From Cerasicoccus sp. TK19100 (lineage in GTDB: Bacteria; Verrucomicrobiota; Verrucomicrobiia; Opitutales; Cerasicoccaceae), in contig NZ_JAPWDU010000010.1 of assembly GCF_027257155.1 (NCBI RefSeq), positions 62,001 through 126,000 of the forward strand: DNA of 64,000 nucleotides. The letters run 5' to 3'. This document shows, piece after piece, positions 41,390 to 56,498 of the stretch; position 1 is the stretch's first letter, and each line of letters begins with the position of its first letter. A program made the translations under genes and the position numbers. The notes under the pieces were generated by a model that did no database searches, was not told the origin of the DNA, and saw only the letters and a program-made list of their open reading frames with translations.

Positions 41390-41666
41390 CAAAAAGACGC
41401 CTAGGTCTTTTCAAAAACAACACCACTGTTGTTACTCCGACACAGCAGGCTGTGTTGCTCCAACATAGCCACTGTTGCTTCCTAAACACAAGCACTGTTG
41501 TTTTGAAAAAGAAGCACTAGGCTTTTCGAAACATAGCATAGGGCTTTTGAATCAAGGTCCGAATAGCCCACTGGAGGGCGATGCTTCGTCATCGCCGAAC
41601 GTTGCCCCTTGCTTCTTCTAACGCACTATTCATCCGTGGCGGCGATGACGAAGCATCGCCCTCCAG
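41390..41666 (+). repeat. Composite repeat element, copy 1: degenerate array plus double palindrome
   Basis: This fills the 406-nt spacer between convergent hemA and ctaG. Part one (about 41390-41550) is a degenerate array of some six units with a period of ~22-26 nt, built of ACAAGCACTGTTGTTTT-like words. Part two is a perfect 27-bp inverted repeat (41571-41597 and 41640-41666). Each arm is itself a hairpin: GGCGATG, six-nt loop, CATCGCC. The right arm abuts the ctaG stop codon. A second copy with the same order lies at 56.2-56.4 kb on the other strand. No gene is supported here. Confidence 0.85.
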
Positions 41667-56187: not shown

Positions 56188-56430
56188 CGGCGACGACAGA
56201 GCGTCGCCCTCCATTTGTTGCGTCGCATTGCCTTGGAGGGCGACGCTCTGTCGTCGCCGCTTCGTAGAAAACGCTTAGGCAGAGACTCAAAAACAACCGC
56301 ACTTGTGTTTGTACGACAACCGAGGCTGTGTTGCCTCAACAACACTACTGTTGTTGAACAAACAACAGTGGTGGCTTTTGGGAAAAACCCGAGTAGGCTT
56401 TTGCAAAACAACCGTATAGGAAACTCTATT
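56188..56430 (-). repeat. Composite repeat element, copy 2
   Basis: Inverted counterpart of the element at 41.4-41.7 kb. On the minus strand the degenerate ~22-26-nt array (about 56430-56275, words such as AACAACAGTAGTGTTGTTG) comes first, then a perfect 26-bp inverted repeat (56188-56213 and 56234-56259). The arm hairpin is GGCGACG, six-nt loop, CGTCGCC; relative to copy 1 (GGCGATG...CATCGCC) both sides of the stem changed, keeping the pair. Apparent open frames in it are not supported. Confidence 0.85.
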
Positions 56431-56498
56431 TTTGCTCAGTTGGTTCGGTTGGCTCCATTGCTTCAGTTGCTTCGAATGGCGTATGGCGTGCCTGTACG

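Follow-up and report, generated by a model that had tools for sequence, protein, structure and literature searches.

In the intergenic mosaic elements of Neisseria, which are built of short inverted repeats whose ends are constant and whose middles vary, dRS3 alternates with longer RS repeats. The pneumococcal BOX element, dispersed between genes, is assembled from three fixed modules; its ends have modules of their own, those inside vary in number, and the element forms a stem-loop. Iteron or operator arrays, such as those of ParR, TubR or plasmid Rep proteins, are phased clusters of half-sites that occur once or a few times per replicon, beside their own gene. The Neisserial mosaics with dRS3 repeats are named, for example, in PMC3898611. 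For REP elements, a RAYT gene flanked by inverted REPs is the defining arrangement (Nunvar et al. 2010, PMC2817692). The usual REP tag is GTAG, variants at its second and third positions have been described, and the verrucomicrobium Opitutus terrae is known to be rich in such repeats (PMC3733652).

Here, we analysed a stretch of 64,000 nucleotides, hereafter the window, which corresponds to C10:62001-126000 of the Cerasicoccus genome G000 (Verrucomicrobiota, Opitutae; 5.07 Mb in 13 contigs) and in which palindromes lie next to a degenerate array at two places. The palindromes share with REP/BIME elements and their RAYTs the short tagged hairpins, the many extragenic copies, the inverted pairs and a RAYT gene with inverted flanks, but differ from the GTAG/CGTC families (PMC3733652) in that their tag is GGAG instead of GTAG. 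The array has none of the REP/BIME features. Like the Neisserial dRS3 mosaics, it is an intergenic mosaic made from short inverted repeats that are constant at the ends and variable in the middle, but its units directly adjoin one another in a rigid lattice of 23 bp and its closed lexicon switches between species. It resembles BOX in being modular, dispersed and intergenic, with variable inner modules and distinct ends, whereas the stem-loop of BOX has no counterpart in a supported conserved fold of the array. The regular phasing of its putative half-sites recalls iteron/operator arrays; it differs from these in its approximately 37 dispersed copies, its several word types and its putative reader.

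G000 was compared with three congeners, coded G001, G002 and G003, so that four Cerasicoccus species were searched in all. Gene calls in G000 were ORF-based, and array counts were obtained with a core model of the array that used sequence alone, was built on aligned G000 copies and was run genome-wide; the weakest array places in this search had E-values of 1e-5 to 1e-3. REP copies were searched in the whole genome with the arm pattern, allowing up to three mismatches and using the reversed pattern as a control. Array words were parsed in 46 arrays from three species, based on the known words.

Table 1. Repeat features of the window, with positions counted from its first nucleotide
Feature	Position	Strand	Description and basis
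REP, 41.6 kb	41571..41597	+	GGAG tag at outer (left) end; stem GGCGATG/CATCGCC
REP, inverted partner	41640..41666	-	tags-outward pair, the commonest form (13/16 two-copy loci)
REP, 56.2 kb	56188..56213	-	stem GGCGACG/CGTCGCC; tag facing partner
REP, inverted partner	56234..56259	+	tags-inward pair, a rare form (2/16 two-copy loci)
Array 1	41394..41549	-	7 units of inverted half-words, leader missing; model match C10:103413-103522:-, 72.5 bits; alignment; spacing and alternation
Array 2	56267..56427	-	7 units of inverted half-words; model match C10:118289-118402:-, 85.8 bits; alignment
Leader of array 2	56428..56476	-	minus-strand CGAAGCAACTGAAGCAATGGAGCCAACCGAACCAACTGAGCAAAAAT; leader match in 19/27 scored arrays

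The palindromes and the RAYT gene on contig C3

Both inverted repeats are perfect, as the original prediction had stated with 26-27 bp: the one at 41571-41666 has arms of 27 bp and a 42-nt spacer, and the one at 56188-56259 has arms of 26 bp and a 20-nt spacer (Table 1). Each arm is itself a hairpin, in which GGAG is followed by GGCGATG or GGCGACG, a loop, and CATCGCC or CGTCGCC. The arm pattern was matched four times in the window and not at all in shuffled sequence, and the genome-wide search yielded 61 copies of a GGAG-tagged family compared with none for the reversed control pattern. These copies occupy 33 loci, mostly as inverted pairs (13 of the '+-' and 2 of the '-+' type), and the tag that accompanies GGCGAYG..CRTCGCC varies in few of them. 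The two pairs in the window have opposite polarities.

At each of the seven stem positions, no fewer than 59 of the 61 copies are paired, and the exchange of GAT..ATC for GAC..GTC between the window arms, which had been predicted to keep the pairing, is real. Compensatory exchanges in the stem comprise C-G/T-A, A-T/G-C and G-C/T-A/A-T. The pair that varies in the window is C-G in 29 copies, T-A in 31 and T-G in one, a covariation that was partly helped by the search because C/T and A/G were allowed at the two window-variable positions. Exchanges at neighbouring stem positions (G-C to T-A or A-T; A-T to G-C) cost mismatches and are therefore unbiased; another pair is A-T in 45 and G-C in 14 of the 61 copies.

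A RAYT (Y1) gene had been proposed as something to look for, and matches to the Y1 transposase domain were found at eight places in the genome, of which four or more exceed the cut-off for RAYTs. The RAYT gene at C3:599245-599505 sits between two REP clusters of the GGAG family in inverted orientation (598721-599027 and 599643-599848), and its protein contains the HIH motif and scores 93.2 bits against NF047646 (REP-associated tyrosine transposase, NCBIfam; cut-off 80). Judging from the RAYT literature, this transposase would act on the GGAG-tagged hairpin and thereby spread REPs in inverted pairs (BIME/REPIN), and we propose recognition of the hairpin by the enzyme as the reason why the stem stays paired. 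With their tag, dispersal, inverted pairs and covarying stem, the window palindromes are almost certainly REP elements, which upholds the earlier assignment to the REP/BIME type. This half of the locus is ordinary, a new member of an already known type of element, and the question is closed.

Two further observations concern the same kind of repeat. Within their first 300 bases, contigs C10 and C1 begin with one and the same repeat of approximately 250-300 bp, which contains a GGAG-family REP pair. Further REP-like families of palindromes (TAGGGCTCGCGCTTGCGCGA..., TAGGGACGGTTGCCCTCAACCGTCC, ...) are crowded into the same gaps between genes (L084, L098, L099, L101 and others).

The array as a separate repeat family

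The original prediction treated array and palindromes as one composite element that occurs twice in opposite orientation but in the same order, with an array period of approximately 24 nt. We measured a period of 23 nt and found both arrays on the minus strand, where the core model scored 72.5 versus 53.9 bits for array 1 and 85.8 versus 38.6 bits for array 2; the leader on the right side of the 56-kb array agrees with this assignment. Because both arrays are minus-strand, the REP pair is located upstream of array 1 (41 kb) but downstream of array 2 (56 kb), and with the opposite REP polarity neither the orientation nor the order holds as predicted. The idea of a composite also fails genome-wide, since the array lacks these palindromes at no fewer than 33 of about 37 places.

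In total, the core model identified arrays at about 30-37 dispersed places. That array and REP pair moved together by a RAYT as one mobile element is suggested by the REP pair near both window arrays and by the four of 37 array places with a GGAG REP within 1 kb, all four within 250 bp, compared with approximately one expected from shared gaps by a rough estimate. The remaining 33 of 37 arrays stand alone, however, as do 29 of 33 REP loci (no array within 1 kb), and side and polarity of the REPs differ between the two window copies. A GTAG-tagged REP-like family is found within 500 bp of 4/28 arrays. Because this family lies near equally many arrays, shared intergenic gaps suffice to explain the neighbourhood of REPs and arrays. 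We consider joint movement highly improbable and are nearly certain that the array is independent of the REP palindromes.

All 27 scored arrays are intergenic, and their copies have leader and core in common but not the flanks; some are approximately 90-94% identical over the array. In three congeners, the orthologous places have neither the window arrays nor the REP pairs beside the conserved gene. Lacking a counterpart there, the two window copies of the array do not represent conserved regulatory sites. The array constitutes a family of dispersed repeats of its own, apparently one not yet described, and a limited search of the Cerasicoccus literature by title and abstract retrieved no treatment of genome repeats. 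Taken as one statement, the presence of two unrelated repeat families that share intergenic gaps, REPs and a separate array lattice, is probable. A gene for an IS200-type TnpA (NF033573, 69 bits; L062 / L001, C6:256818-258130) lies approximately 1 kb downstream of one array.

Among 88 genomes searched, the core model found arrays in only three, all of Cerasicoccus; they were absent from the third congener, G002, and 84 other relatives. A two-unit pattern of the array grammar was positive in the same three genomes, and a stricter three-unit pattern matched G000 alone among 388 genomes of the phylum, a sample that did not contain the two positive congeners. Collections of phages and plasmids yielded no match to the array pattern, and an IMG/VR contig that matched the grammar pattern was discarded, since the match is an exact tandem repeat, unrelated to the array, in a contig densely packed with coding sequence. 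At C2:453571, C5:140156 and C9:143883, G000 also has arrays that follow this grammar with different words (AACACAT, AACAGAT), perhaps an older or second class.

Word grammar, folding and species vocabularies

An array consists of an optional leader and 4-12 units of 23 bp, each composed of a left word and an inverted right word. Neighbouring words were inverted in all 438 pairs parsed in the 46 arrays of three species, and word centres are spaced 23 bp apart, with 22.5-24 bp in every single step but one, which gives one putative half-site per 11.5 bp. Left and right words assort independently, and units of the type AAAAGCC-CTATG-CTATGTT are as regular as palindromic ones. A CRISPR or other direct-repeat array was rejected since the units are inverted, degenerate and abutting.

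Identical words were found 22 times within a unit versus 45.0 expected and 11 times across the linker versus 42.0 expected; when words were grouped by superclass, the deficit within units disappeared (65 versus 69.3) and a weak one across the linker remained (46 versus 61.5). Because identical neighbours are not enriched, pairing of neighbouring words is not selected. Single arrays fold better than their dinucleotide shuffles (z of -1.7 to -9.1), but arrays in which half-units were permuted among positions of the same orientation folded equally well, with mean z-values of the real arrays of -0.39 and -0.30 for the two strands and 8/45 arrays below -1.64 on each. Based on this word-shuffle result, the fold excess over dinucleotide shuffles stems mainly from the inverted vocabulary itself, and a few individual arrays may be exceptions. 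RNAalifold gave -1.12 kcal/mol and no covarying pairs for the array alignment, and the array matched no Rfam family. Selection on a folded form, to which the stem covariation had been taken to point, is supported for the REP palindromes; in the array, covariation is missing and word order gives no sign of such selection.

These results bear on an alternative reading of the array, as a structured RNA or as a bidirectional terminator with several hairpins. Units such as AAAAGCCTACTGGGGCTTTTT resemble terminator hairpins, and the folds beat dinucleotide shuffles, but most units join two different words and form no hairpin, and identical words are enriched neither in units nor across linkers. Word order does not improve the fold, and neither covariation nor an Rfam match argues for an RNA. 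The gene context of the arrays is mixed, with converging genes on both sides in only 7/27. We therefore regard this alternative as unlikely: the alignment fold, the single-sequence folds, Rfam and the word-shuffle test remove RNA as the main reading, and the mixed gene context argues against the terminator.

The vocabulary differs between species. The words come from a small lexicon, which in G000 comprises AAAAGCC, AACATAGC, AACACAGC and AACAACAG, and that of the relatives AACAACCG, GTACAGC and AGTTTCCT. In G000, G001 and G003, respectively, AACAACAG is present in 27/27, 0/10 and 5/8 arrays, AACAACCG in 2/27, 10/10 and 8/8, AACATAGC in 20/27, 10/10 and 0/8, and GTACAGC in 1/27, 0/10 and 5/8; the relatives' loci are those with the best scores for the G000-built model, which biases against foreign words and not for them. 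Four G000 arrays adjoin a gene that also neighbours an array in another species, always on the 3' side of the gene. Because the neighbour genes are shared and the words are different, some array positions have been retained while the words changed.

Because the pitch is strict, the inversion fixed and the vocabulary shared within a species, and because a conserved fold is absent, we prefer a lattice of DNA and protein to an RNA fold as the explanation. In this model, inverted half-sites of double-stranded DNA, one every 11.5 bp, would be occupied by a DNA-binding protein that acts as a dimer or oligomer, and a drift of its specificity between species would cause all arrays of a genome to change their words together. 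We assign a probability of about 0.45 to this reading, in which the protein and any regulatory effect are putative. Against it, 11.5 bp does not correspond exactly to one turn of the DNA helix. The folds that beat dinucleotide shuffles leave room for a single-strand role of some array copies, and gene conversion or recent copying, a serious rival, could bring about the concerted word change without a reader protein.

Association with integron-like cassettes

A repeated 170-bp block that resembles an attI site with a promoter, with a promoter-like TTGACG and the conserved end CAGTTCGTAAGTTT.GAGGTGTGATC, was found at C1:392k, C1:635k, C4:163k, C4:324k, C6:295k, C6:374k and C6:547k (L063-L069) and at C7:29k (L078). 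Seven of the eight blocks, two of these being partial or weak matches, are located just downstream of an array, 72-196 nt beyond its core and in constant order; one block has no array. The genes that follow vary (a CAP12/TIR effector, a BRCT protein and unknowns), and attC-like hairpins lie between some of them. From this anatomy, blocks and genes appear to be integron-type cassettes on scattered attI/promoter sites. The array itself is not an integron attC site, as the attC-like hairpins are found at cassette ends and not in the array. A dispersed CTTCGCGCCTTTGCGTCTTCGCGTGAGAT-like repeat is present near the far ends of several cassettes (L063 4511-4544, L065 3739-3769 and L069 7544-7577, in array orientation).

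Integron-integrase remnants in several frames were identified at contig ends (L076, C4:585382-586180; L077, C5:567071-567618) and are approximately 89% alike over 586 bases. The remnants on C4 and C5 and the seven blocks with cassette-like genes directly downstream would suit an array that is a selfish dispersed repeat, or a set of recombination half-sites whose halves are shuffled by a site-specific recombinase, possibly tied to the integron cassette system. The common leader and core in differing flanks, the absence from orthologous sites of the congeners and the independent assortment of left and right words point the same way. On the other hand, the remnants are broken and far from arrays, no attI/promoter-like block was present at the relatives' array loci examined or at most arrays of G000, and in four cases an array of another species directly follows the same gene, which suggests some long-term retention. 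We consider this explanation rather doubtful, although better placed than RNA or a terminator.

If the array is a protein lattice, the subset of arrays just upstream of the attI/promoter blocks may serve to silence, insulate or mark the cassette promoter. In its widest form, this would be a system specific to the genus, with approximately 30-40 word arrays across the genome and a fast-evolving putative DNA-binding reader, whose shifts in specificity would rewrite the words of all arrays in a species; in G000, it would mark or control scattered integron-cassette platforms. We put forward this wider proposal tentatively, as one that is less likely than not.

The array is a rare case of a dispersed intergenic repeat with an explicit grammar of strict inversion, 23-bp pitch and independent half-words, and the unlinked arrays of one genome use a common vocabulary that is different in sister species. 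If a protein reads the array, this would be a natural system in which to follow how a DNA-binding protein and its dozens of dispersed sites evolve together; if none does, the array is an unusual concerted repeat. The scattered integron-like sites, some of them with defence-type genes such as the CAP12/TIR effector, could bear on the control of cassettes outside the classical integron.
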